Below are positions 27,444 through 49,111 of a stretch of 64,000 nt of DNA, piece by piece. The notes under the pieces were generated by a model, which saw nothing but the letters and a program-made list of their open reading frames with translations, was not told the DNA's origin and did not search any database. Made by a program: the position numbers and the translations under genes. Numbering within the stretch: the stretch's first letter is position 1; the number at the start of each line of letters is the position of its first letter. This stretch comes from Pectobacterium araliae (lineage in GTDB: Bacteria; Pseudomonadota; Gammaproteobacteria; Enterobacterales; Enterobacteriaceae). The stretch is taken from the NCBI RefSeq assembly GCF_037076465.1, contig NZ_AP028908.1, forward strand, positions 4,030,001 through 4,094,000. The letters run 5' to 3'.

Positions 27444-27944
<501 letters not shown>

Positions 27945-28108
27945 TTACAATCCTTATACTCTCCAAATGTAACACCCGCCAGCGCGTTAATCCGAAAAAG
28001 TGAACTGTCCATCACTCTTCTGAAACGACCTTCTTCTTCCCACCGACATTATGCATACAGCACCCCACCCGCAACCGATTGCGATGCGTAAAAAACCACG
28101 CTTTCTGC

Positions 28109-28136
28109 TTGAAATAGCCTAGTCGGCGCGTATAAT
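28109..28136 (+). promoter_or_regulatory. pyrLBI promoter
   Basis: TTGAAA (28109-28114), 16-bp spacer, TATAAT (28131-28136). The start region just after it is followed by a CCGACAG/CCGGG hairpin that could act as a transcription pause. Confidence 0.75.
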
Positions 28137-28161
28137 TCCCGACAGTTTGCCGGGAGGGGTC

Positions 28162-28284
28162 ATGCACCGTTACACCAAAAAATTCGCTGTTTATGTTGGT
28201 TCTCAACCACAACTGCCATCCGGCAGCCAGCCAGCGTTTTCCTTTCCGTTGCTCAATCGATCAATTAAGAAAGCCCCTCAATGA
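28162..28284 (+). CDS. pyrL: pyrBI leader peptide
   Basis: A 40-codon leader frame starting MHRYTKKFAVYVGSQPQLP behind a GGGAGGGG ribosome site. Its transcript has a U-rich tract (TTTTCCTTTCC, about 28234-28244) and its stop codon TGA (28282-28284) falls in the loop and stem of the attenuator. In E. coli, low UTP slows polymerase in such a tract, letting the translating ribosome catch up and block terminator formation, so pyrBI is expressed. The peptide differs from E. coli PyrL but the layout is the same. Confidence 0.8.
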   Translation: MHRYTKKFAVYVGSQPQLPSGSQPAFSFPLLNRSIKKAPQ

Positions 28285-28297
28285 GGGGCTTTTTTTT
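28268..28297 (+). terminator. pyrBI attenuator
   Basis: Stem AAGCCCCTC / GAGGGGCTT with a 3-nt loop, followed by a T8 run, 60 bp before pyrB. It overlaps the end of the pyrL frame, as required for UTP-sensed attenuation. Confidence 0.9.
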
Positions 28298-28357
28298 GCC
28301 CACCGCCCGGGCCGCCAGATACAACATTTCCTGTTTACTCGTTAGGAGAAAGACAAC

Positions 28358-29293
28358 ATGGTCAATCCGCTCTATCAAAAACATATCATTTCGATTAACG
28401 ACCTCAGTCGGGAAGATTTAGAGCTGGCGCTGAATGTAGCCGCTAGCCTGAAAGCCAAACCTCAGCCTGAGCTGTTAAAACATAAAGTGATTGCCAGTTG
28501 CTTCTTCGAAGCATCTACCCGGACACGTCTGTCCTTTGAAACCGCGATGCATCGCCTGGGTGCCTCCGTCGTCGGTTTCGCCGACAGCAATAACACATCG
28601 CTGGGGAAAAAGGGCGAAACGCTGGCCGATACTATTTCCGTCATCAGCCAGTACGTTGATGCCATCGTGATGCGCCACCCGCAGGAAGGCGCGTCCCGCC
28701 TTGCCACCGAATTCTCCGGCGGCATTCCGATTCTGAACGCGGGCGACGGCGCGAACCAGCACCCGACGCAGACGCTGCTCGATCTGTTCACCATTCAGGA
28801 AACGCAAGGTCGGCTGAATAACATCAACATCGCGATGGTCGGCGATTTGAAATATGGTCGCACCGTGCATTCACTCACGCAGGCGCTGGCCAAGTTCGAA
28901 GGCAACCGCTTCTATTTCATCGCCCCAGACGCATTGGCAATGCCAGACTACATTCTGAGCATGCTGAAAGAGAAGAATATTGCTTACAGCCTGCACAACA
29001 GCATCGAAGACGTCGTCGGCGAACTGGATATTCTGTACATGACACGCGTCCAGAAAGAGCGTCTGGACCCCTCCGAATACATCAACATCAAATCCCAGTT
29101 TGTGCTGCGCGCCGCCGACCTGCACAGCGCCCGCCCGAACTTGAAAGTGCTGCACCCGCTGCCGCGCGTCGATGAGATCACCATTGATGTGGATGCCACG
29201 CCTTACGCCTATTATTTCCAACAGGCGGGCAACGGCATTTACGCCCGTCAGGCACTGCTGGCGCTGGTCTTGAATCGCGAACTGGTTCTGTAA
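28358..29293 (+). CDS. pyrB: Aspartate carbamoyltransferase catalytic chain
   Basis: Catalytic subunit of the dodecameric aspartate transcarbamoylase, forming carbamoyl aspartate in the first committed step of pyrimidine synthesis. Length 311 as in E. coli. The carbamoyl-phosphate motif STRTRLSFE lies near residue 53; [11 protein letters not shown] and HPLPRVDEI are present. A GGAGAAAG ribosome site precedes it. First structural gene of pyrBI under attenuation control. Confidence 0.98.
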
Positions 29294-29773
<480 letters not shown>

Positions 29774-29841
29774 TTTTCTGCTTTGTCTCGTAATGAACAT
29801 TGCCTGCGACGGGGCTTTTTTGAATAATGGCTACGTCCGTG

Positions 29842-29950
29842 TAATGCCGATCGTTTAAGGATCGTGATACCGGGGCTACCACGGTGTGAGGCATTCCTAC
29901 GGAAACCTCACACCGCGTTTCCTCTAAATCCATGCTTAAGTGACTAGCAT
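29842..29950 (+). repeat. Palindromic about 110-bp intergenic repeat, family B copy 2
   Basis: The most complete copy. Ends form an imperfect inverted repeat: AATGCCGATCGTTTAAG on the left and, reversed, AATGCTAGTCACTTAAG on the right. Inside, CCACGGTGTGAGG pairs with CCTCACACCGCG. Lies between pyrI and ridA. Confidence 0.8.
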
Positions 29951-29992
29951 TCTGCATCCGCGTTCCTTTTACGCCCCCATCAAGGAGATACT

Positions 29993-30379
29993 ATGTCACG
30001 CATTATCAGCACTGAGAACGCCCCAGCCGCCATCGGCCCTTATGTTCAGGGCGTCGACCTTGGCAGCATGATCTTCACGTCCGGCCAGATCCCCGTGAAT
30101 CCGAAAAGCGGCCTGGTGGCTGACAACATCACCGCTCAGACGCGCCAGTCACTGGAAAACGTTCAGGCGATTGTGGAAGCCGCTGGTCTGAAAGTTTCCG
30201 ATATCGTGAAAATGACCGTGTTCGTAAAAGACCTGCACGATTTCACTCTCGTGAACACCGCGTATGAAGCCTTCTTCAACGAACATAGCGCACCGTTCCC
30301 GGCTCGCTCTTGCGTTGAAGTCGCCCGCCTGCCAAAAGACGTGAAAATCGAAATCGAAGCGATCGCCGTTCGTCGCTAA
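29993..30379 (+). CDS. ridA: 2-iminobutanoate/2-iminopropanoate deaminase RidA
   Basis: Hydrolyses reactive imines released by PLP enzymes such as threonine dehydratase. The 128-residue protein has family signatures YVQGVDLGSMIFTSGQIPV and ARSCVEVARLPKDVKIEIEA; the Arg in the last segment binds substrate. Preceded by AAGGAGA. Placed after pyrBI as in E. coli. Confidence 0.97.
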   Translation: MSRIISTENAPAAIGPYVQGVDLGSMIFTSGQIPVNPKSGLVADNITAQTRQSLENVQAIVEAAGLKVSDIVKMTVFVKDLHDFTLVNTAYEAFFNEHSAPFPARSCVEVARLPKDVKIEIEAIAVRR

Positions 30380-30403
30380 CTTTCGCTATTGATAACCACC
30401 TCA

Positions 30404-30440
30404 CAAGACGCACCATCATGGCTGCGTCTTGTTGATTTTT
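30404..30440 (+). terminator. ridA terminator
   Basis: Perfect stem CAAGACGCA / TGCGTCTTG (30404-30412 with 30423-30431) followed by TTGATTTTT, 25 bp after ridA. Confidence 0.85.
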
Positions 30441-30597
30441 CGCCGTTTTCTCCCCTCATTTCAGTGCAACCACGCCTCCCAACGCACCAATACAGGGCAA
30501 AATTCCGCGTATTCTCTGACAACAGCATGCTTTTTCAAAATGGCGCATTTTATGCATTGTCCTATTATCGCTATTAAGCGTGATGCTGGGGATGACA

Positions 30598-32037
30598 ATG
30601 ATAAAAATGAAGCTTCCAACTGCGCCTTATTACGACGAGATGCTCTCGTCCGAAGGCAAACAACGTCAACACTACAATTCTTATTGGCAGTGGCTACAGC
30701 AAACCGACCAGCATGCCATCCGACAAAAGAAAGAGCAGGCAGAACTGCTCTTTCACCGCGTCGGTATTACTTTTAACGTTTATGGTGAGGAAGGCGGCAC
30801 CGAACGCCTTATTCCGTTCGATAGCGTACCGCGTATTATTCCCGCTAATGAATGGCAGTTGCTCGATCGCGGCATTCGTCAGCGGGTACAGGCGCTGAAC
30901 GCGTTTCTTTACGACATTTACCACCAGCAGCACATTCTCAACGCGGGCATTATTCCTCGTGAACAGGTGCTGGCGAACGAGCAATATCAGCCCTGTATGC
31001 AGGGAGTAAACCTGCATAACAACATTTATGCCCATATCACGGGGATCGATATGGTGCGCAACAGCGACGGCAATTATTACGTGCTGGAAGACAATTTGCG
31101 TACCCCATCCGGCGTCTCTTACATGCTGGAAAATCGCAAAATGATGATGCGTCTCTACCCGGATCTGTTTGCCAGCCAGCACATCGCGCCCGTAGAACGC
31201 TATCCGAGCTATCTGCTACAAACGTTGCGTGAAAGTACGCAGGTTGACGATCCTACCGTGGTCGTGATGACGCCGGGTCGTTTCAACAGTGCTTACTTCG
31301 AACACAGCTTTCTGGCACAGCAAATGGGCGTCGAGCTGGTAGAAAGTGCAGATTTGTTCGTCAAGTCCGGTGCCGTCTACATGCGCACGACAGAAGGGCC
31401 TTGTCAGGTGGATGTGATTTATCGCCGTGTCGATGATGCCTTCCTCGATCCGCTGGCGTTTCGTGCCGACTCAATGCTTGGCGTACCCGGCCTGCTGTCC
31501 GTCTATCGTGCAGGCGGCGTCGTGTTAGCCAATGCGGTCGGCACTGGCGTTGCCGACGATAAATCCATCTATCCCTACGTGCCGGACATGATCCGTTTCT
31601 ATCTGTCTGAAGAACCGATTCTCAGTAATATTCCCACCTGGCAGTGCCGCGACCCAAAAGCTCTCCGCTATGTTCTCGACCATCTGGACAGCATGGTAGT
31701 GAAGGAAGTCCACGGCGCAGGCGGTTACGGCATGCTGGTCGGCCCGCGCGCGACACGTCAGGAAATCGAGATGTTTCGTCAGCGTTTACTGGCAAACCCG
31801 CATAACTATATTGGTCAGGAAACGCTGGCGCTCTCCACCTGCCCGACGTTTATCGATGATGGCTTAGCGCCTCGTCATATCGACCTTCGCCCTTTCGCGC
31901 TATCCGGCGAGGAAATCCGTCTGATTCCCGGCGGTCTGACGCGTGTTGCCCTTACCGAAGGCTCTCTGGTCGTCAACTCCTCTCAAGGCGGCGGCACCAA
32001 AGATACGTGGGTCATGGAGGGGGATGAATCATGCTAA
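30598..32037 (+). CDS. Circularly permuted type 2 ATP-grasp protein (COG2308)
   Basis: First gene of the Anbu operon. The family (DUF404/DUF407) has a rearranged ATP-grasp fold and is predicted to ligate a carboxylate to an amine using ATP; the substrate is unknown. Signatures: GVNLHNNIYAHITGIDMVR, YYVLEDNLRTPSGVSYMLEN, YRRVDDAFLDPL, VKEVHGAGGYGML and GQETLALSTCPT. The start is uncertain: GTG 30580, ATG 30583, 30592, 30598 and 30607 are in frame; I chose 30598 (479 residues) because GGGGA sits just upstream. The stop overlaps the next gene by 7 bp. Confidence 0.9.
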   Translation: MIKMKLPTAPYYDEMLSSEGKQRQHYNSYWQWLQQTDQHAIRQKKEQAELLFHRVGITFNVYGEEGGTERLIPFDSVPRIIPANEWQLLDRGIRQRVQALNAFLYDIYHQQHILNAGIIPREQVLANEQYQPCMQGVNLHNNIYAHITGIDMVRNSDGNYYVLEDNLRTPSGVSYMLENRKMMMRLYPDLFASQHIAPVERYPSYLLQTLRESTQVDDPTVVVMTPGRFNSAYFEHSFLAQQMGVELVESADLFVKSGAVYMRTTEGPCQVDVIYRRVDDAFLDPLAFRADSMLGVPGLLSVYRAGGVVLANAVGTGVADDKSIYPYVPDMIRFYLSEEPILSNIPTWQCRDPKALRYVLDHLDSMVVKEVHGAGGYGMLVGPRATRQEIEMFRQRLLANPHNYIGQETLALSTCPTFIDDGLAPRHIDLRPFALSGEEIRLIPGGLTRVALTEGSLVVNSSQGGGTKDTWVMEGDESC

Positions 32038-32960
32038 GCCGTACCGCAAGTGAACTGTATTGGATGGCTCGCTATCTGGAGCGGGCAGAAGGCCTCGCCC
32101 GCGTGCTGGATGTGACCTACAAACTCTCGATGATGCCGAGCCATAGTCAACAGCAACACGATCTGGCATTGCCGCTGAATCTGACGATGACGCATGAATT
32201 ATTTCAGCAGCGCTACGCCCAATTTTCCATGAACAACCTGCTGAATTTCTTCGCATTGGACAACCAGAACCCCAGCAGTATCTACAACTGTATCGAAATG
32301 GCCTGGAATAACGCGCACGCCGTGCGTGGCAGCCTCTCTTCCGAGGTCTGGGAATGCATCAACACCACCCGCATCGACATTCGCAATCTACGGCATCAGG
32401 GCGTGGACACCATCGGTATTGATGCATTTTTTGACTGGGTAAAAGAGCGTTCTCACCTGTTTCGCGGCGCGATGTTCGGCACCCTGCTGCGTAATGATGC
32501 CCAGTGTTTTATCCGTCTTGGTACGCTGATTGAGCGCGCCTATGCCACCGCACAGTTACTGAATATCAAACATCAGCAACTCCATAACGACCCCGATCCG
32601 GTGCGTGAGTATTATCGTCTGGATACCCTGCTGCGGGCAGTGAGCGCACGCGAGGCTTACCACAGCATCTATCGCCAGCCGATCAGCCTGGAAACAGTGA
32701 CCGAACTGCTCGTCTTGCGCGAGGACATACCGCGTTCTTTGCACGCCTGCGTCAGCGATCTGGTACAGCAGTTAGAAGCCATCGGTAGCCAGCGAGCCAG
32801 AGTGCCCCACCGGCTTGCCCACCTACTGCACGTTGAGCTGCGTTTCAGCACGCTGGATGACATTCTGGCGCAGGATCTCCCCACCTATCTCAACCACTTT
32901 ATCGGCAAAATTAACGAATTGGCTGACAGCATCCGTCACACCTATCTGGAGGCGTTATGA
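32031..32960 (+). CDS. Alpha-E domain protein (COG2307)
   Basis: A 309-residue all-helical protein of the DUF403/alpha-E family, almost always next to the permuted ATP-grasp gene. The N-terminal signature is LSRTASELYWMARYLERAE, followed by regular amphipathic helices; LRHQGVDTIGIDAFFDWVKER and MFGTLLRNDAQCFIRLG are further conserved parts. No catalytic motif is evident; it may act as a scaffold or present a substrate to the ligase. It overlaps the preceding gene by 7 bp and the next by the 4-bp ATGA, so translation is coupled. Confidence 0.92.
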   Translation: MLSRTASELYWMARYLERAEGLARVLDVTYKLSMMPSHSQQQHDLALPLNLTMTHELFQQRYAQFSMNNLLNFFALDNQNPSSIYNCIEMAWNNAHAVRGSLSSEVWECINTTRIDIRNLRHQGVDTIGIDAFFDWVKERSHLFRGAMFGTLLRNDAQCFIRLGTLIERAYATAQLLNIKHQQLHNDPDPVREYYRLDTLLRAVSAREAYHSIYRQPISLETVTELLVLREDIPRSLHACVSDLVQQLEAIGSQRARVPHRLAHLLHVELRFSTLDDILAQDLPTYLNHFIGKINELADSIRHTYLEAL

Positions 32961-33778
32961 AACTGACCATCAATCACCTTACGCACTACCGCTATGATGA
33001 AGAAGTGAAATTCAGCACCCAGTACCTGCGCTTGACGCCGCAAGATTCCGTGCACCAAAGAATACATGAATGGAAACTGACCCTGCCTGTTCCCGCCGTT
33101 CAAACCACCGATGCGTATGGTAATGTGTTACATGTGCTAACGCTCGACCACCCGCACCATGACATTACGATTCATGCAGAAGGCATTGTCGATATCATCG
33201 ACAGCGACGAAGGAGAAAAACCAGCCGTACAGGACGCTCTGTCGCCGCTGGTTTTTTTACGTATGACGCCGCTCACCGAAGCCGACGGCAATATTCGGGC
33301 GTTTGCCCAGCGCTATTATCAGCAAGATGCGCCGGAAGAGAGCCTGAATACGCTGATGGCGGAATTGCTGTTGAAAATGCCGTATACTCCCGGCGCAACG
33401 CAGGTTCAGGATAGCGCCGCTGCCGCGTTTGCCATGCAAAAAGGCGTGTGTCAGGATCACACCCATGTCTTTCTGGCATGCTGCCGCAGCCTGGCTATCC
33501 CGGCGCGCTATGTCAGCGGCTACGTCTACAGCAAGGACACCAAGCATGTTGCGATGCATGCCTGGGCGGAAGTCTGGCTGAACGGAAAGTGGCAAGGATT
33601 CGACATTACCAATAGCTCCCGCCAGCTCTACCAGCATCTGTGGCTGGCCGTAGGGATGGATTATATGGATGCCTGCCCGGTACGCGGTACGCGACTGGGA
33701 GGTGGATGCGAAGAGATGTTTTCAGAGGCTGAAGTCCGTTTGTTTGCACGGCAACAGCAGGTACAGCAGCAACAGTAA
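32957..33778 (+). CDS. Transglutaminase-like cysteine protein (COG1305)
   Basis: A 273-residue protein with an N-terminal beta domain (LTINHLTHYRYDEEVKFS) and a papain-like transglutaminase core. The catalytic triad is visible: Cys in GVCQDHTHVFLACCR, His in HAWAEVWL and Asp in GFDITN. Members of this subfamily cluster with ATP-grasp/alpha-E genes and may cut or form isopeptide or peptide bonds in the product of the ligase. It is cytoplasmic by lack of a signal peptide. Followed by anbu after a 23-bp gap. Confidence 0.92.
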   Translation: MKLTINHLTHYRYDEEVKFSTQYLRLTPQDSVHQRIHEWKLTLPVPAVQTTDAYGNVLHVLTLDHPHHDITIHAEGIVDIIDSDEGEKPAVQDALSPLVFLRMTPLTEADGNIRAFAQRYYQQDAPEESLNTLMAELLLKMPYTPGATQVQDSAAAAFAMQKGVCQDHTHVFLACCRSLAIPARYVSGYVYSKDTKHVAMHAWAEVWLNGKWQGFDITNSSRQLYQHLWLAVGMDYMDACPVRGTRLGGGCEEMFSEAEVRLFARQQQVQQQQ

Positions 33779-33801
33779 AATTGTTAATAAAAAGGTACTT
33801 T

Positions 33802-34539
33802 ATGACGTACTGTGTCGCCATGTGTCTGTCTGACGGCCTGGTTTTTGCTTCTGACTCCCGCACCAATGCAGGCGTTGATCACATCGCAACGTTCAAAAAG
33901 TTGCATGTCTTTCAACACGAAGCAGAACGGGTATTCGTTATCCAATGCGCGGGAAATCTGGCAACCACGCAAAGCATCATCAGCCTGCTCAGCGCCCGAA
34001 TCAATACGCAACACACGCCGAACCTGATGCAGATGGGATCGATGTATGATGCCGCGATGCTGCTTGGGGAAACGGTGCGAGAAGTCATTCACCGCGATAG
34101 CAGTGCGCAGCAGAACGGCAGCAACACCAATTTTGGCTGTAATCTGCTGCTGGGTGGACAAATCGGCGGCGACACCCATCGGCTATTTCATATTTACCCA
34201 GAAGGCAACTTCATCGAGTCCACGCCGGATACCCCCTACTTCCAAATCGGCGAAAGCAAATACGGTAAACCGATTATCGATCGGGTATTGACCATGGATA
34301 CCTCGCTGGAGCAAGCCATGTGCTGTGCGCTGATTTCCATCGATTCTACTTTGCGCAGTAACCTATCTGTCGGCCTGCCATTGGATGTCATGATTTACCG
34401 TAGCGGTAGTTTTGACAGCAGCGAACAGCAACGCATCACTGAAAATAACGCCTATTTTTCCGCTATCCGTAAAGCATGGTCTGAAGGGCTGCTGAACACC
34501 TTCCGCCAACTACCCCCTTTCCCTGACATTCAACAGTAA
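33802..34539 (+). CDS. anbu: Anbu proteasome-type peptidase (ancestral beta subunit)
   Basis: A 245-residue Ntn-hydrolase related to HslV and proteasome beta subunits (COG3484). I chose the ATG at 33802 because the nucleophile must be the residue after Met: MTYCVAMCLSDGLVFASDS puts Thr at position 2, exposed after Met removal. The frame start at 33781 would bury it. The SDSRTNAGVD segment and downstream Lys (FKKLHVF) fit the proteasome-like active site. Known Anbu proteins form open helical or split-ring assemblies and are of uncertain function. Last gene of the operon, ending before a strong terminator. Confidence 0.93.
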   Translation: MTYCVAMCLSDGLVFASDSRTNAGVDHIATFKKLHVFQHEAERVFVIQCAGNLATTQSIISLLSARINTQHTPNLMQMGSMYDAAMLLGETVREVIHRDSSAQQNGSNTNFGCNLLLGGQIGGDTHRLFHIYPEGNFIESTPDTPYFQIGESKYGKPIIDRVLTMDTSLEQAMCCALISIDSTLRSNLSVGLPLDVMIYRSGSFDSSEQQRITENNAYFSAIRKAWSEGLLNTFRQLPPFPDIQQ

Positions 34540-34551
34540 TACGCCCTCATT

Positions 34552-34597
34552 GGCATTCAGTAGCCGTAACCACGACGGGCTACCGAATGCCGAAAAA
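34552..34597 (+). terminator. Terminator of the Anbu operon
   Basis: Long interrupted stem GGCATTC-A-GTAGCC / GGGCTAC-C-GAATGCC (34552-34591) followed by GAAAAAT, 12 bp after anbu. The T run is poor, but the stem is very stable. Confidence 0.7.
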
Positions 34598-34830
34598 TAG
34601 CCTCTGCTATTTCTAACGCCAGTCACTTAAGCCCGTTTCCTCCACCTATCTCGATACTAAACGCTCGGCATTAGTCTGCCATTTCAGATTTTTCTGTCTT
34701 TTCACCCTCACTGACAATAAAAACGCCTCAATCACGTCACCAGACCACGTACCGCAAGCCGTCACAAACCTTGCGTCCGAAATGGTGAAATTTCGGTCAA
34801 GGTCGATTTATCTACTAGGTAAGAATTTCT

Positions 34831-34844
34831 TTGCTCTACATCAA
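34831..34844 (+). promoter_or_regulatory. Putative FNR site upstream of nrdD
   Basis: TTGCT-CTAC-ATCAA matches the FNR consensus TTGAT-N4-ATCAA at nine of ten half-site bases. It lies about 170 bp before nrdD. Oxygen-limited activation of the anaerobic reductase is expected. Confidence 0.6.
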
Positions 34845-34880
34845 TTTTGCTGCGATAAAAGCGCAAACCCTCCTACGCAA

Positions 34881-34928
34881 TTTCAATATATAGTGCCTAT
34901 CCTATAAACACGACCTACATATAGTGTT
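34881..34928 (+). promoter_or_regulatory. Paired NrdR boxes upstream of nrdD
   Basis: TTTCAATATATAGTGC (34881-34896) and ACCTACATATAGTGTT (34913-34928), both close to the NrdR consensus with a central ATATAG core. They are 32 bp apart centre to centre, about three helical turns, the normal spacing for NrdR repression by dATP-loaded tetramers. Confidence 0.8.
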
Positions 34929-35012
34929 TATCCACAGTGTCATCCACAGCCCTCTGTAACCCTTGTCGGTTAGGGCTTTCGCCTGTGGATAACCTTTCTA
35001 GAGGAAGAAAAC

Positions 35013-37151
35013 GTGAAACCAGTAGTGATTAAACGGGACGGTTGCCAGGTGCCTTTTGATGAAGTACGTATCAAAGAGGCGGTCGAGCGCGCGGCACAGG
35101 CAGCCGGTGTCAATGATGCAGACTATTGTGCAACTGTGGCCTGTGCGGTCGCTCAACAAATGCTGGATAAATCGCGCGTAGATATCCGCGATATTCAGGA
35201 CGCGGTCGAAAACCTGCTGATGTCTGGCAAGTATAAGCAGCTGGCGCGTACCTACATCGAATACCGCCATGACCGCGATATTGCGCGTGAACGCCACGGT
35301 CGCCTCAATCAGGAAATTCGTGGTCTGGTCGAGCAGAGCAACATGGCGCTGCTGAACGAAAATGCCAACAAAGACAGTAAAGTGATCCCCACCCAGCGCG
35401 ATCTGCTGGCAGGGATTGTCGCCAAACACTACGCCAAACAGTACATCCTGCCGCGTGATGTGGTATTGGCGCACGAACGCGGTGAGATTCACTATCACGA
35501 CCTCGACTACTCGCCGTTTTTCCCGATGTTCAACTGCATGCTGATCGACCTGAACGGCATGCTGACCAACGGCTTCAAAATGGGCAATGCGGAAATTGAA
35601 CCGCCGAAGTCGATCTCAACCGCGACCGCCGTCACCGCGCAGATTATCGCGCAGGTCGCCAGCCACATTTATGGCGGCACCACGATTAACCGTATTGATG
35701 AAATTCTGGCACCGTTCGTCACCGCCAGCCATGCGAAACACAAAGCCGTGGCGGAAGAGTGGAAGATCCCAGATGCAGAAAACTATGCCCTGACCCGCAC
35801 TGAAAAAGAGTGCTACGACGCCTTTCAGTCACTGGAATATGAAGTCAACACGCTGCACACCGCTAACGGCCAGACGCCGTTCGTCACTTTTGGCTTTGGG
35901 CTTGGCACCTGCTGGGAATCGCGTTTGATTCAGGAATCCATCCTGCGTAACCGCATTGCCGGGCTGGGTAAAAACCATAAAACCGCAGTATTCCCAAAAC
36001 TGGTCTTCGCCATCCGTGACGGTCTGAACCATAAGGCAGGCGATGCCAATTACGATATCAAGCAGCTCGCGCTAGAGTGCGCCAGCAAACGCATGTATCC
36101 AGATATCCTGAACTACGATCAGGTCGTGAACGTCACGGGTTCGTTCAAAACGCCAATGGGCTGCCGCAGTTTCCTCGGCGTTTATGAAGAAAACGGCCAG
36201 CAGATTCACGACGGGCGTAATAATCTGGGTGTCATCAGCTTGAACCTGCCGCGTATTGCGCTGGAAGCCGAAGGCAATGAAGATCGCTTCTGGACGCTGC
36301 TGGATCAACGTCTGACGTTGGCGAAGAAAGCACTGATGACGCGTATTGCGCGATTGGAAAACGTAAAAGCTCGCGTCGCACCAATCTTATATATGGAAGG
36401 TGCCTGCGGCGTGCGCTTAAAAGCGGACGACAATATCGCAGACATCTTCAAAAACGGACGCGCCTCGATTTCGCTGGGCTATATCGGCCTGCATGAAACG
36501 ATTAATGCGCTTTTCGGTAGCCAGACACACGTGTTTGATGATGAAGCGCTGCGTGCCAAAGCCGTGGCTGTCATTGCCCGCCTGAAAGCCGCCACCGAGC
36601 AGTGGAAAGACGAAACAGGTTACGGCTTCAGCCTGTACAGCACACCAAGCGAGAACCTGTGCGATCGCTTCTGCCGTCTGGATACCGCCGAATTTGGCGT
36701 CGTACCAGGCGTGACGGACAAAGGCTATTACACCAACAGCTTCCATCTCGATGTGGAGAAGAAGGTGAACCCTTACCAGAAAATCGACTTTGAGTTGCCC
36801 TATCCGCCGCTGGCTAACGGTGGGTTCATTTGCTACGGCGAATATCCGAACCTGCAACACAACCTCAAAGCGCTGGAAGACGTGTGGGATTACAGCTACA
36901 CGCGCGTGCCTTATTACGGCACCAACACGCCGATCGATGAATGCTATGAATGTGGCTTCACGGGTGAATTCGAGTGTACCAGCAAAGGCTTCACCTGCCC
37001 GAAATGTGGTAACCACGATTCGGCGCGCGTTTCCGTGACGCGCCGTGTGTGCGGCTACCTCGGTAGCCCGGATGCACGCCCGTTCAACGCCGGTAAGCAG
37101 GAAGAAGTTAAACGCCGGATTAAGCATCTGGGCAACGGTCAACTGGGGTGA
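35013..37151 (+). CDS. nrdD: Anaerobic (class III) ribonucleoside-triphosphate reductase
   Basis: Glycyl-radical enzyme that makes deoxynucleotides without oxygen. 712 residues, same length as E. coli NrdD. An N-terminal ATP-cone regulatory domain (VVIKRDGCQVPFDEVRIKEAV) precedes the barrel; the radical glycine is residue 681 in RVCGYLG. The C-terminal zinc site has CYEC and CPKC pairs. It starts with GTG at 35013 behind GAGGAAG. Its partner activase nrdG follows. FNR and NrdR sites lie upstream. Confidence 0.98.
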   Translation: MKPVVIKRDGCQVPFDEVRIKEAVERAAQAAGVNDADYCATVACAVAQQMLDKSRVDIRDIQDAVENLLMSGKYKQLARTYIEYRHDRDIARERHGRLNQEIRGLVEQSNMALLNENANKDSKVIPTQRDLLAGIVAKHYAKQYILPRDVVLAHERGEIHYHDLDYSPFFPMFNCMLIDLNGMLTNGFKMGNAEIEPPKSISTATAVTAQIIAQVASHIYGGTTINRIDEILAPFVTASHAKHKAVAEEWKIPDAENYALTRTEKECYDAFQSLEYEVNTLHTANGQTPFVTFGFGLGTCWESRLIQESILRNRIAGLGKNHKTAVFPKLVFAIRDGLNHKAGDANYDIKQLALECASKRMYPDILNYDQVVNVTGSFKTPMGCRSFLGVYEENGQQIHDGRNNLGVISLNLPRIALEAEGNEDRFWTLLDQRLTLAKKALMTRIARLENVKARVAPILYMEGACGVRLKADDNIADIFKNGRASISLGYIGLHETINALFGSQTHVFDDEALRAKAVAVIARLKAATEQWKDETGYGFSLYSTPSENLCDRFCRLDTAEFGVVPGVTDKGYYTNSFHLDVEKKVNPYQKIDFELPYPPLANGGFICYGEYPNLQHNLKALEDVWDYSYTRVPYYGTNTPIDECYECGFTGEFECTSKGFTCPKCGNHDSARVSVTRRVCGYLGSPDARPFNAGKQEEVKRRIKHLGNGQLG

Positions 37152-42553: not shown

Positions 42554-43489
42554 ATGGCAAACAGAATTTGGGTCATGGGCGACGCGGTTGTCGATCTCAT
42601 CCCGGAAGATACGGAACGCTATCTGAAATGCCCCGGCGGTGCGCCAGCCAATGTCGCGGTCGGCATTGCCAGACTGGGGGGAAACAGCGCCTTTGTCGGT
42701 CGCGTTGGTGACGATGTTTTTGGCCATTTTCTAAAAACGGTTCTGGAACAGGAAAGCGTCGATACCCATTACATGGTGCACGACAGGCATCACCGAACCT
42801 CAACCGTGGTCGTGAGCCTCGATGAAACTGGGGAACGCACCTTCACGTTCATGGTGCGTCCGAGTGCCGACCTGTTTTTACAACCGAAAGACCTGCCGGT
42901 GTTCAACCAGAAAGAATGGCTGCACCTCTGCTCTATCGCGCTGTCGCAAGAACCGTCGCGCAGTACCACATTTGAAGCGATGCGGCAGGCGAAAGCTGCA
43001 CAGGGACGGGTCAGCTTCGATCCGAATATCCGTGGCGATCTCTGGCAAAGCAAACAAGAACTGCGCCATTGTCTGACACAGGCGCTAATGCTGGCCGATG
43101 TGGTGAAATTGTCGCGCGAAGAACTGGCTTTTCTCTGTGCAACACCGGACGTTGAAGAAGGCATCAAGCAGTTCATGCAGCGCTACCCTACTCGATTGTT
43201 GCTGGTGACGCTGGGAAGTGAAGGCGTCTGGCTGCACGATCGCCACCAGCTACAGCACTTTGCCGCACCAACGGTGAAACCTGTTGATACCACTGGTGCA
43301 GGGGATGCTTTCGTTGCGGGTTTACTGCATGGCCTGGCGCAATATGACGACTTGTCACAGCCGCTGAGTTGGGACCCGATTATCGCGCAGGCACAGCAGT
43401 GTGGTGCGCTGACCACCACGGCAAAAGGCGCAATGACGGCACTCCCTTACGCACAGCAATTACCCCACCCACCCGTAACCAAGCCCTAA
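42554..43489 (+). CDS. scrK: Fructokinase of the sucrose regulon
   Basis: PfkB-family kinase that phosphorylates the fructose released by ScrB. 311 residues. Signature 1 is in CPGGAPANVAVGIARLGG (about residues 27-44), and signature 2 with the catalytic Asp is DTTGAGDAFVAGL near residue 240. Starts MANRIWVMGDAVVDLIPE as in enteric ScrK. It is set apart from scrYAB by 186 bp holding another operator, so it can be transcribed on its own. Confidence 0.97.
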   Translation: MANRIWVMGDAVVDLIPEDTERYLKCPGGAPANVAVGIARLGGNSAFVGRVGDDVFGHFLKTVLEQESVDTHYMVHDRHHRTSTVVVSLDETGERTFTFMVRPSADLFLQPKDLPVFNQKEWLHLCSIALSQEPSRSTTFEAMRQAKAAQGRVSFDPNIRGDLWQSKQELRHCLTQALMLADVVKLSREELAFLCATPDVEEGIKQFMQRYPTRLLLVTLGSEGVWLHDRHQLQHFAAPTVKPVDTTGAGDAFVAGLLHGLAQYDDLSQPLSWDPIIAQAQQCGALTTTAKGAMTALPYAQQLPHPPVTKP

Positions 43490-43520
43490 CCCCTCGTTTC
43501 ATACGGTTACCGCCCGGTTT

Positions 43521-43536
43521 TGTAGTCAGGATCACA
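43521..43536 (+). promoter_or_regulatory. Putative CRP site upstream of scrY
   Basis: TGTAG-TCAGGA-TCACA matches the CRP consensus TGTGA-N6-TCACA at nine of ten positions. Catabolite control of sucrose genes by cAMP-CRP is known in enteric scr regulons. Confidence 0.65.
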
Positions 43537-43606
43537 ATTACAGAATCGGGCAAATGAAATTTCTTGCTAACCCATCTGCAGGCTTTTATTTTTCTCATGA
43601 AAAACC

Positions 43607-45211
<1,605 letters not shown>

Positions 45212-45281
45212 TGATTGGCTAGCCTTGGTGTCGATGACACGCTAATCGACGCTAAAGAAACGGTATACACAGAGGAATAAC

Positions 45282-46652
45282 ATGGATATCAACGCAACTG
45301 CCTCCGCACTCATCCCCTTGCTTGGCGGGAAAGAGAATATCGCCAGTGCCGCCCACTGCGCCACTCGTCTGCGTTTAGTGCTGAACGACGACAGGCTGGC
45401 AGACAAAAAAGCAATCGAGAATGTTGATGGTGTAAAAGGCTGCTTTCAGAACGCCGGACAAATGCAAATTATTTTCGGCACCGGGCTGGTGAACAAGGTT
45501 TACTCTGAGTTCATTAAAGCCGCTGGCATCAGTGAATCAAGCAAATCCGAAGCCGCCTCCATCGCGGCGAAAAAGCTGAATCCGCTGCAAAGACTGGCAC
45601 GTCTGCTATCGAATATTTTCGTCCCTATCATGCCTGCGATTATCGCATCTGGTCTGTTGATGGGTTTGCTCGGCATGATCAAGACCTACGGCTGGGTCGA
45701 TGCCAGCAGCGCGATCTTCGTGATGCTGGATATGTTCAGCTCCGCAGCCTTTATTATCCTACCTGTTTTGATCGGTTTTACCGCCGCACGGGAATTCGGC
45801 GGCAATCCCTATCTGGGTGCAACGCTGGGCGGTATCCTGACCCATCCGGCGCTGACCAACGCCTGGGGCGTCGCCGGGGGCTTCCAGACCATGCATTTCT
45901 TCGGCATGGACATCGCCATGATTGGCTATCAGGGCACGGTATTTCCGGTCCTGCTCGCCGTCTGGTTCATGAGCATTGTGGAAAAGCGCCTGCGTAAAAT
46001 CGTACCGGATGCGCTGGACATCATCGTCACGCCATTCCTGACCGTCATCATCTCCGGTTTCGTCGCGATGTTGCTTATCGGTCCGGCTGGGCGTGCACTG
46101 GGCGATGGTATTTCTTTAGTTCTCAGCACACTGATTGCCCACGCTGGCTGGCTGGCCGGTTTGCTGTTCGGCGGCCTCTACTCCGTCATCGTTATCACCG
46201 GTGTTCATCACAGCTTCCATGCGATTGAAGCCGGGTTGCTCGGCAACCCGAACATCGGCGTCAACTTCCTGCTGCCGATTTGGGCAATGGCGAACGTGGC
46301 ACAGGGCGGCGCGTGTCTGGCAGTCTACTTCAAAACGCGTGATGCCAAAACCCGAGCGATTGCCGTTCCCGCAGGGCTTTCTTGTCTGCTGGGTATCACG
46401 GAAGCGGCGATATTTGGTATCAACCTGCGCTTCATTAAACCGTTCTTGGCGGCACTGGCGGGCGGTGCGCTCGGTGGCGCGTGGGTGGTCTTCAATCATG
46501 TCAATATGACGGCCGTCGGGCTAACCGGTTTTCCGGGGTTGGCCATTGTGCAAGGGGGCTCAATGCTTAACTACCTGATTGGGATGTTGATTGCATTCGG
46601 TGCCGCCTTTGTCATTTCCTTACTGCTGAAATACAAAACGGATAGCGAATAA
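45282..46652 (+). CDS. scrA: Sucrose-specific PTS enzyme IIBC
   Basis: Imports sucrose and delivers sucrose-6-phosphate. The 456-residue protein begins with a IIB domain whose phosphorylated cysteine is in AAHCATRLRL (about residue 26), followed by a ten-helix IIC domain (from about residue 105). It lacks its own IIA and relies on the glucose IIA. Starts behind AGAGGAA; its stop overlaps the scrB start by one base (TAATG). Confidence 0.97.
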   Translation: MDINATASALIPLLGGKENIASAAHCATRLRLVLNDDRLADKKAIENVDGVKGCFQNAGQMQIIFGTGLVNKVYSEFIKAAGISESSKSEAASIAAKKLNPLQRLARLLSNIFVPIMPAIIASGLLMGLLGMIKTYGWVDASSAIFVMLDMFSSAAFIILPVLIGFTAAREFGGNPYLGATLGGILTHPALTNAWGVAGGFQTMHFFGMDIAMIGYQGTVFPVLLAVWFMSIVEKRLRKIVPDALDIIVTPFLTVIISGFVAMLLIGPAGRALGDGISLVLSTLIAHAGWLAGLLFGGLYSVIVITGVHHSFHAIEAGLLGNPNIGVNFLLPIWAMANVAQGGACLAVYFKTRDAKTRAIAVPAGLSCLLGITEAAIFGINLRFIKPFLAALAGGALGGAWVVFNHVNMTAVGLTGFPGLAIVQGGSMLNYLIGMLIAFGAAFVISLLLKYKTDSE

Positions 46653-48061
46653 TGAAGGAAATCCACTTACTAAAACGCATGGCACACGCCCTGATGTCAG
46701 GTCATTCACGGAAACAGGAAGATCCGTATCGCCCAGAATGGCATCTGTCCCCGTGCGTGGGCCTGCTTAACGATCCGAACGGATTCATTCATCACAATGG
46801 GCGCTACCATCTGTTTTATCAGTGGAATCCTTTAGCCTGTGCCCACGGAGCGAAATTCTGGGGGCACTGGAGCTCCGCCGATCTGGTGAACTGGACGCAT
46901 GAACCCGTGGCGCTAGTGCCGAGTGAAAGCTATGAAAGCCACGGCTGCTACTCCGGCTCTGCCATAGTCGATCAGGGCGCGATTATGCTGATGTATACGG
47001 GTAACGTGAAATACGACGATGGCTCACGCACCGCGTTTCAATGCCTCGCCCGTGAAAACCCTAACGGTGAATATGACAAGCTGGGCGCTGTGCTAACGCT
47101 TCCCGATGGCTACACCGGCCACGTCCGCGACCCTAAAGTGTGGCGTCATGATGACCACTGGTACATGGTGCTTGGTGCACAGGATCTCTGCCTGCAAGGT
47201 AAAGTGCTGCTCTACCGTTCTGCCGACCTGCTGGCATGGGACAAGATCGGCGAGATCGCCGGTTCCCGTCTGGGCGGACTCGGTGATTTTGGCTATATGT
47301 GGGAGTGCCCAGACCTGTTCCCACTGGATGGCAAAGAGGTGCTCATTTGCTGCCCGCAGGGCATCCCTGCCGAAGGAGAACGCTACCTGAATACCTTCCA
47401 GGCTGGCTATTTCATTGGCTCACTCGACTACAACAGCGGTGCTTACCCCCATCAGGCGTTCCACGAACTGGATCTCGGTTTCGAATTTTACGCGCCACAA
47501 ACCACGCTGAGTGAAGACGGGCGACGCTTGTTATTCGGCTGGATGTCGATTCCTGACGATAATGAGTTTTTTGAACCGACGATCGAATACGGTTGGATTC
47601 ATACCATGACCTGCCCGCGTGAACTCACACTGCATGGCAACCGCGTTTACCAACGCCCTGCTCGCGAATTGCAACAGCTGCGCAAGCAGCATTACACCTG
47701 GCAGGGTGCCGCAGACTACGCGTTGCCGCTGAACGCGAGCAGTGCGGAAGTGCTCATCACCGTGCAAGGGGAATTCCAGTGTAACCTTGCCTCGCAGATC
47801 GTTCTCTGCTGGGACGGTGAACGCGTAACGATAAGCCGACACAACCGTCGCACTGGGGAACCCGAACACCGCTATTGGCGCGGCGACCTCCGTCAATTGC
47901 AGATACTGTGCGATCGCTCCAGCGTTGAAATTTTTATCAACGATGGCGAAGCCGTGATGTCCTCACGCTATTTCCCAGAAAGCGAGGCGACTATCACGTT
48001 CAGCGGCTCTGGACGATTAACGCTACAACACTGGCTGTTAGCGCCATGCGTGATAGAATAA
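46652..48061 (+). CDS. scrB: Sucrose-6-phosphate hydrolase (invertase, GH32)
   Basis: Splits sucrose-6-phosphate into glucose-6-phosphate and fructose. The 469-residue protein has the GH32 nucleophile motif as LLNDPNG, the transition-state RDP motif in HVRDPKVW, and the acid/base Glu in MWECPDLF. A C-terminal beta-sandwich follows. Translationally coupled to scrA. Confidence 0.97.
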   Translation: MKEIHLLKRMAHALMSGHSRKQEDPYRPEWHLSPCVGLLNDPNGFIHHNGRYHLFYQWNPLACAHGAKFWGHWSSADLVNWTHEPVALVPSESYESHGCYSGSAIVDQGAIMLMYTGNVKYDDGSRTAFQCLARENPNGEYDKLGAVLTLPDGYTGHVRDPKVWRHDDHWYMVLGAQDLCLQGKVLLYRSADLLAWDKIGEIAGSRLGGLGDFGYMWECPDLFPLDGKEVLICCPQGIPAEGERYLNTFQAGYFIGSLDYNSGAYPHQAFHELDLGFEFYAPQTTLSEDGRRLLFGWMSIPDDNEFFEPTIEYGWIHTMTCPRELTLHGNRVYQRPARELQQLRKQHYTWQGAADYALPLNASSAEVLITVQGEFQCNLASQIVLCWDGERVTISRHNRRTGEPEHRYWRGDLRQLQILCDRSSVEIFINDGEAVMSSRYFPESEATITFSGSGRLTLQHWLLAPCVIE

Positions 48062-48091
48062 CTTCCCTTTTTTCTGATAGCAGACCTCGCG

Positions 48092-49111
48092 GTGAAACCG
48101 ACTAAACGCATAACAATCAGTGACATCGCCGCGCTAGCCGGTGTATCAAAATCCACCGCCAGTCTGGTGCTTAACGGCCGCAGCAAAGAGTTTCGCGTTT
48201 CTGATGAAACCCGCGATCGCATTTTGGCCGTCGCGCATGAGCAGCGTTATCAGCCCAGCATTCACGCCCGTTCGCTGCGTTCCTCACGCAGCAACACGCT
48301 GGGGCTTGTGGTGCCGGAAATGACCAACTACGGCTTCGCCGTCATTTCCCGTGAATTGGAGATGCTATGCCGTGAAGCAGGGTTACAGTTACTGATTGCC
48401 TGTACCGACGAAAATGCCAGTCAGGAGATGATGGCGGTCAACAGCCTGGTACAACGTCAGGTCGATGGCCTGATCGTCGCCTCCAGTCTGTTAAACGATA
48501 CCGAGTATCAGAAAATTAATCAGCAGTTGCCCGTCGTACAATTTGACCGGATTATTGGTGATTCCACACTGCCGATGGTGATTTCCGAAGCGGTAGAATC
48601 GACGGCGGAAATGGTCGAGCGAATCGCCCGCCAGCATCGTGATGAATTCTATTTCCTTGGCGGCCAGCCGCGCATTTCTCCCACTCGCCACCGGCTGGAA
48701 GGCTTCCAGCTTGGGCTGACACGCGCAGGTATCGACTGCCAGCCAGAATGGATTCTTCACGGCAGTTATCACCCCAGCGCGGGTTATGAAATGTTTGCTC
48801 AACTGTGTGCGACGCTGGGACGCCCGCCAAAAGCGCTGTTTGTTGCCGCTTGTGGCCTGATGGAAGGCGTGCTGCGCTATATGAACCAGCATAACCTGAT
48901 GGAAAGCGGCATCCGTCTATGTTGCTTTGACGATCACTATCTGTTTGATTGTTTGCCGCTGAAGATCGATACCGTGGCACAGGACTGTGAAAATCTGGCA
49001 CGTAACAGCTTTGAAATGATTACGAGTTTGATTGCACAACAGCCGCTTGAAGAAGATCGGCGCTATATCCCAACGCGTATTCACTGGCGTCACCCCGACT
49101 CACGGGCGTAG
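48092..49111 (+). CDS. scrR: Sucrose operon repressor
   Basis: LacI-family repressor of scrK and scrYAB, released by fructose or fructose-1-phosphate. 339 residues from GTG 48092. The helix-turn-helix is [23 protein letters not shown], followed by a hinge helix ([11 protein letters not shown]) and a periplasmic-binding-like core. It follows scrB by 30 bp and is probably co-transcribed, which gives autoregulation. Confidence 0.97.

Follow-up and report, generated by a model that had tools for sequence, protein, structure and literature searches.

A conserved sigma54-type promoter element in front of the Anbu operon of Pectobacterium araliae and its possible link to nitrogen starvation

What might a proteasome relative do in a bacterium when it is encoded next to a putative ligase and no unfoldase? 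The question is raised by four adjacent genes in a stretch of 64,000 nucleotides from Pectobacterium araliae (Pseudomonadota; Gammaproteobacteria; Enterobacterales; contig NZ_AP028908.1, positions 4,030,001 to 4,094,000), which we refer to as the window. The last of the four encodes Anbu, which we take to be COG3484, a protein that figures in arguments about the origin of the proteasome. The papers cited below report no proven function for it. Our answer, to which we give roughly one chance in two, is that the window holds an intact Anbu operon under NtrC/sigma54 control, and that its products form a nitrogen-starvation unit for joining and cleaving amide bonds rather than for bulk proteolysis. 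The genes in question are the following:

30598..32037, + strand: circularly permuted ATP-grasp protein (PF14403/PF04174), relative of the solved 3n6x, from the ATG at 30598; family match and alignment
32031..32960, + strand: alpha-E protein (PF04168), an all-helical prediction; neither sequence nor Foldseek searches gave a PDB relative
32957..33778, + strand: transglutaminase-like enzyme with conserved Cys165, His201 and Asp216; Pfam and alignment
33802..34539, + strand: Anbu, a proteasome-type N-terminal nucleophile (Ntn) hydrolase with invariant Thr2, Asp18 and Lys33; Pfam, solved chains and alignment

All four reading frames are open and intact, and their close spacing (the ATP-grasp and alpha-E genes overlap by 7 nt, the alpha-E and transglutaminase genes by 4 nt, and 23 nt precede Anbu) suggests a single transcript. 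An in-frame GTG at 30580 is an alternative possible start of the ATP-grasp gene. The Pfam matches all exceed their cut-offs (PF14403, 550 bits over its full length, 1–374 of 374; PF04168, 290; PF01841, 79; PF08379, 76; PF00227, 39), and an NCBIfam search of the products gave no match above a curated cut-off. A preliminary description of the window had given the same overlaps and the same four identities, had called Anbu an HslV relative without a known unfoldase partner, had seen no substrate encoded there and had held that E. coli K-12 lacks the operon. Open frames, spacing and Pfam matches bear out the first two statements. Neither an unfoldase nor a substrate is among the four products, and in having no unfoldase gene the operon differs from self-compartmentalising proteases with an AAA+ partner (HslVU, 20S). 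The absence from E. coli agrees with the ATP-grasp gene having no blastn match among 5,426 genomes of that species, and with PF04168 and PF14403 matching only Caulobacter and Synechococcus among 14 control genomes.

Since the conserved residues of all products are intact, this copy looks functional. It is an orthologue of the Anbu operon described in PMC6376114 and PMC5666114. By the former paper's description, the operon of Yersinia bercovieri matches it in all four families and in their order, and no difference in gene content is known from either that operon or Pseudomonas putida PP_2685–2688 (PMC7801951), both compared by description only. As to genomic site, the operon lies behind ridA in all 15 loci from Pectobacterium, Brenneria, Dickeya and Prodigiosinella, and in 8 of these it stands no more than 1.5 kb before nrdD. 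When 80 named loci were fetched with the window Anbu, 63 proved to have the order ATP-grasp, alpha-E, transglutaminase, Anbu, so the arrangement is not due to chance. In ten of the other 17, the best transglutaminase match lies away from the ATP-grasp, alpha-E and Anbu genes, and seven have no ATP-grasp match in the stretch, some of them being cut by contig ends.

The regulatory half of our answer comes from two elements in front of the ATP-grasp gene:

30541..30556, + strand: sigma54-type −24/−12 element TGGCGCATTTTATGCA, 9 of 12 consensus letters, exact GG-N10-GC spacing, conserved position
30483..30499, + strand: weak NtrC-like palindrome CGCACCAATACAGGGCA, 9 of 12 consensus letters

The former is the best GG-N10-GC site 5′ of the operon, its first base lying 57 bp before the ATP-grasp ATG. 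We scanned 300 bp upstream of the operon in the window and in 73 named loci; seven others (L058, L060, L064, L069, L073, L077 and L082), in whose stretches there is no ATP-grasp match, were left out. An element with at least 9 of 12 letters is present in 73 of these 74 upstreams, L076 being the exception. Such elements recur in Enterobacterales, Aeromonas, Pseudomonas, Microbulbifer (where all 12 letters match) and Thauera, mostly at a distance of 28–66 bp upstream of the ATP-grasp gene. In three outliers (L029, L031 and L051) the best site is further upstream, and L029 and L031 also have one of this class where it is usually found. When four groups of upstreams were aligned, the TGGC half proved conserved, while the second half was split by the aligner between two subgroups in Kosakonia/Klebsiella.

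For comparison with shuffled sequence, 30 representatives, mostly one per genus label, were picked by hand after the scan (the Enterobacter-labelled L049 and L050 were omitted). Within 200 bp of the ATP-grasp start, 29 of the 30 have an element of at least 9/12 (mean 2.49 and maximum 8 in 200 rounds of dinucleotide shuffling) and 22 have one of at least 10/12 (mean 0.47, maximum 3). The reverse strand of the same stretches gave 2/30, and the upstreams of other mechanically called open reading frames in the same loci 33/387. NtrC-like palindromes of at least 10/12 occur in 17 representatives (shuffle mean 0.65, maximum 4); several lie 58–90 bp upstream of the sigma54 element, others much further away or elsewhere. 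In Dickeya, Prodigiosinella and a locus labelled Martelella alba, the best NtrC-like match is found at −117 to −130, a distance similar to that in the window, with scores of 11–12. The stretch before this genome's glnA, used as a positive control, scores 10 for both sigma54 and NtrC-like elements, and the genome has one ntrC match above cut-off and one rpoN match. Two further sets of 20 loci each were chosen by hand: Anbu operons outside the class (19 kept; in L131 the ATP-grasp start falls outside the stretch) and Anbu-less operons taken from order, class and phylum listings. The sigma54-type element of at least 9/12 is present in 10 of the 19 (shuffle mean 1.25, maximum 5) and in 9 of the 20 (mean 1.16, maximum 4), respectively.

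Taken by itself, the window site was rejected as significant: 8–10 of 200 shuffles (about 5%) score at least as high, seven Pectobacterium sequences being considered. The putative element is convincing by its conserved position and not specific within one genome; that a −24/−12-type element stands at a conserved position before the operon is what the sequence comparison establishes. The sigma54 link is not wholly new, because a 'proteasome-type protease (COG3484)' is listed among predicted sigma54 targets in PMC12316311; an operon-level comparison with controls is what is added here. Among the titles listed in searches of an open-access library, none states this link for Pectobacterium, and none beyond the papers cited here connects Anbu with NtrC or with Pectobacterium.

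Published expression data bear on the same point. For P. putida PP_2685–2688, induced by nitrogen limitation, ntrB/ntrC is given as the putative regulator (PMC7801951). The fold changes reported there on nitrogen limitation, in the order wild type, relA/spoT and rpoN strains, are 12.6, 37.3 and 14.2 for PP_2686, 11.0, 16.6 and 16.0 for PP_2687, 14.7, 32.8 and 19.6 for PP_2688, and 1.1, 4.8 and 1.5 for PP_2685, the proteasome-like gene. In Burkholderia cenocepacia, a related cluster, which includes genes for DUF404/407, DUF403 and two proteins with transglutaminase domains, is down in an ntrC mutant (PMC5491218). The P. putida values support nitrogen control and leave strict sigma54 dependence unsupported, and Anbu follows its neighbours poorly there.

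Several of these observations weigh against the reading that we prefer. The rpoN mutant of P. putida keeps a 14–20 fold induction of PP_2686–2688, and the Anbu gene PP_2685 changes only 1.1 fold in the wild type against 11–15 fold for its neighbours, so that the genes are unequally induced there (PMC7801951). Both promoter elements of the window reach only 9/12. The class TGGCRY-N6-TGCW occurs 224 times in the genome (78 times for the pattern read backward) and about 5% of shuffles score as high as TGGCGCATTTTATGCA or higher, so this site means little in one genome. The 30 representatives share descent, and the shuffle comparison therefore overstates their independence. Outside the class, 9 of 19 Anbu operons have no element of at least 9/12; among those lacking it, L133, L134 and L136 look like relatives of one Rhizobiaceae metagenome-assembled genome locus, with 90–91% identity to a query. 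NtrC-type sites of at least 10/12 are not enriched there (0/19, and 1/20 in the Anbu-less set). Finally, the role in amide hydrolysis is one that we infer.

How, then, is Anbu tied to its neighbours? The counts that follow for the phylum are among the matches listed. In 200 genomes, alpha-E is found in 112 and Anbu in 69, and 68 of the 69 Anbu genomes also have alpha-E (Fisher p 6e-22, with kinship ignored). The alpha-E gene lies no more than 6 kb from Anbu in 59 of the 69, elsewhere in 9 (in one case 7.6 kb off), and for 1 none is among the listed matches. Conversely, 44 of the 112 alpha-E genomes have no Anbu. Of 148 genomes of the order, 19 have alpha-E, and all 10 genomes with Anbu are among these 19. 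By these counts alpha-E is the more widespread of the two, with Anbu as the dependent partner. The ATP-grasp gene adjoins alpha-E in the 40 loci of the two hand-chosen sets, and by this linkage appears to go with it; moreover, one locus (L161) encodes a fused ATP-grasp–alpha-E protein, and many alpha-E frames in the phylum search are long, about 840–870 codons. The fused protein argues that ATP-grasp and alpha-E work as one complex. Thus the core of the system seems to be alpha-E together with the ligase linked to it, and Anbu seems to be an optional hydrolase. In a plasmid collection, Anbu was found on 26 records, including a 173-kb one from Klebsiella; several of the other records listed are chromosome-sized.

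The same distribution bears on the view that Anbu degrades bulk or damaged protein in nitrogen starvation, independently of the other three proteins, whose amide-forming job would be unrelated; non-specific degradation under this condition is a possibility raised in PMC6376114. The nine genomes with alpha-E away from Anbu and the one without alpha-E would suit such independence, as would two Anbu genes that stand alone, the stretches fetched around them giving no match to ATP-grasp, alpha-E or transglutaminase (L077:7001–7720, Paraburkholderia acidicola; L082:7001–7723, Aquabacterium) and the failure of PP_2685 to be induced with its neighbours (PMC7801951). We nevertheless regard this view as improbable, given that alpha-E is kept in 68 of 69 Anbu genomes and that no protease activity was detected in vitro (PMC6376114).

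The operons without Anbu offer further clues. They share the ligase, alpha-E and transglutaminase families with the window operon, some with a fused ATP-grasp–alpha-E protein or DUF2126, and differ in lacking Anbu and in their other neighbours. Twenty proteins encoded in 17 of the 20 loci were compared with Pfam. In one (L154:3290–4873, − strand), a gene of the gamma-glutamyltranspeptidase family, another family of Ntn-hydrolases, stands directly behind the ATP-grasp/alpha-E/transglutaminase set, in the place of Anbu. In another (L149:7611–9580, + strand), two adjacent AstE/AspA-type amidohydrolase genes follow the trio, and DUF2126 'putative amidoligase' proteins are encoded in four (L155, L162, L164 and L166). 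Other neighbours are unrelated or without family; they include a decarboxylase, a carbohydrate kinase, an oxidoreductase, a thiolase, a sigma factor, a methyltransferase and a radical S-adenosylmethionine protein. A search for Anbu remnants behind eight of the trios gave only short matches with E > 0.2, none convincing. These neighbour families are single cases, to be taken as leads only. They would fit a tentative extension of our reading, one that we consider possible though rather doubtful: the operon would serve a nitrogen-starvation pathway and not proteolysis, the permuted ATP-grasp and alpha-E would be one ligase complex activating nitrogen compounds as glutamyl-type or similar amides, and Anbu would be an exchangeable Ntn-hydrolase, replaceable by other amide hydrolases such as the gamma-glutamyltranspeptidase family. 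If true, a proteasome relative would be serving as an amidase for small molecules or isopeptides.

The ATP-grasp protein, which we take to be of the COG2308 type, matches 3n6x with E 1.8e-209, and an alignment of 15 sequences shows invariant blocks and a mean column identity of 77%. In alpha-E, R14, E17 and R18 are kept in 22 of 22 aligned sequences, and the predicted model is confident (predicted local distance difference test 90.6, predicted template modelling score 0.89). A solved relative was found neither by phmmer nor by Foldseek against the PDB at E ≤ 0.001, so that fold comparison gave no function; the modelled fold is possibly absent from the PDB so far. C165, H201 and D216 of the transglutaminase-like enzyme, presumably the Cys-His-Asp triad of its family, are identical in all 15 sequences aligned. 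The same holds for T2, D18 and K33 of Anbu (Thr1, Asp17 and Lys32 of the mature protein) and for its MTYCV start. The solved chain of Y. bercovieri Anbu (YbAnbu), 5nyw (E 6e-109), begins at the Thr equivalent to Thr2. Together with the invariant start, this makes Thr2 the right candidate for the nucleophile, as the preliminary description had supposed in choosing a start that leaves it free; an alternative TTG start at 33781 is unlikely. Further solved Anbu chains match as well (5lox, 5loy, 5nyj and 5nyf), and the closest named relatives are six Pectobacterium proteins with 90–95% identity. HslV and the 20S proteasome beta subunits share PF00227 and the N-terminal Thr with the window Anbu. Unlike them, it has no unfoldase partner in its operon, and published Anbu shows no peptidase activity; open helical or lock-washer oligomers have been seen for other Anbu proteins (PMC6376114). 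In PMC5666114, which reports the same gene association, attempts to obtain another form of Anbu by co-expression failed.

Another reading is protein tagging, an idea attributed in PMC6376114 to Iyer 2009: ATP-grasp and alpha-E would link a protein to a peptide or an amino acid, and the transglutaminase-like enzyme and Anbu would take the tag off or degrade the protein. The preliminary description had presented the operon as just such a self-contained tagging and proteolysis unit; the proposal is not new. It does agree with the chemistry of the families, the four-gene order in 63 of 80 loci, the proximity of alpha-E to Anbu (6 kb or less) in 59 of 69 genomes and the conserved proteasome-like active site. 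On the other hand, neither an unfoldase nor a tag protein is among the four products, and 44 of 112 alpha-E genomes have no Anbu. In published tests YbAnbu was inactive as a peptidase on three proteasome substrates, and no specific binding to its operon partners could be detected (PMC6376114). Adding the 1.1 fold change of PP_2685, we consider the tagging account unlikely.

We prefer amide metabolism to proteolysis, the nitrogen-control signature and the distribution of alpha-E both favouring it. From sequence we infer direct control in this genome: nitrogen shortage would lead NtrC and sigma54 to transcribe the operon. The ATP-grasp protein and its alpha-E partner, as a presumed complex, would then spend ATP to join a carboxylate to an amine, a chemistry suggested by the family; phosphate release from ATP has been shown by others for the Yersinia ATP-grasp. 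The transglutaminase-like enzyme and Anbu, judging by their active sites, would transfer or hydrolyse such amide bonds. The substrates would presumably be nitrogenous amides, amines or short peptides, which the unit would ligate, process and cleave. The gamma-glutamylation of amines in Puu-type catabolism, where ATP-dependent ligation is followed by amide hydrolysis, is similar in logic, the enzyme families being unrelated. Cyanophycin synthetase, a ligase making a reserve polymer, suggests another nitrogen-linked role, in which the ligase would make a reserve peptide or polymer and the two hydrolases would mobilise it. That a ligase shares one nitrogen-linked operon with two enzymes acting on amide bonds would fit storage, but induction by starvation fits mobilisation better, and we find this role very improbable. 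For the amide-metabolism reading, the nitrogen signature makes nitrogen starvation the condition of choice, and the occurrence of alpha-E without Anbu makes ATP-grasp and alpha-E the pair to study first.

Two hairpins flank the operon:

30403..30432, + strand: hairpin 3′ of ridA with a perfect 10/10 bp stem, −18.7 kcal/mol, z −5.0, followed by a U-tract, UUGAUUUUU
34552..34591, + strand: inverted repeat 3′ of Anbu forming a strong hairpin, stem of 14 nt, 93%, z −5.2, followed by GAAAAAUAG, no U-tract

Shuffles of either sequence, against which the z values were computed, fold far less well. Terminators had been proposed at 30404 and 34552, and hairpins do occur at both. The first, with its U-tract, is likely an intrinsic terminator separating ridA from the operon; the second has no U-tract. 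Neither stem is among the + strand terminators given by an automatic scan for sigma70-type promoters and terminators, which was uninformative, its numbers being those of shuffles. An Rfam scan of 27500–36000 found no RNA family at gathering score. Further along the window, at 42554–49111, a PfkB kinase, a LamB-type porin, a phosphotransferase system EIIBC component, a glycoside hydrolase of family GH32 and a LacI regulator stand in a row, in what looks like an ordinary sucrose (scr) operon.

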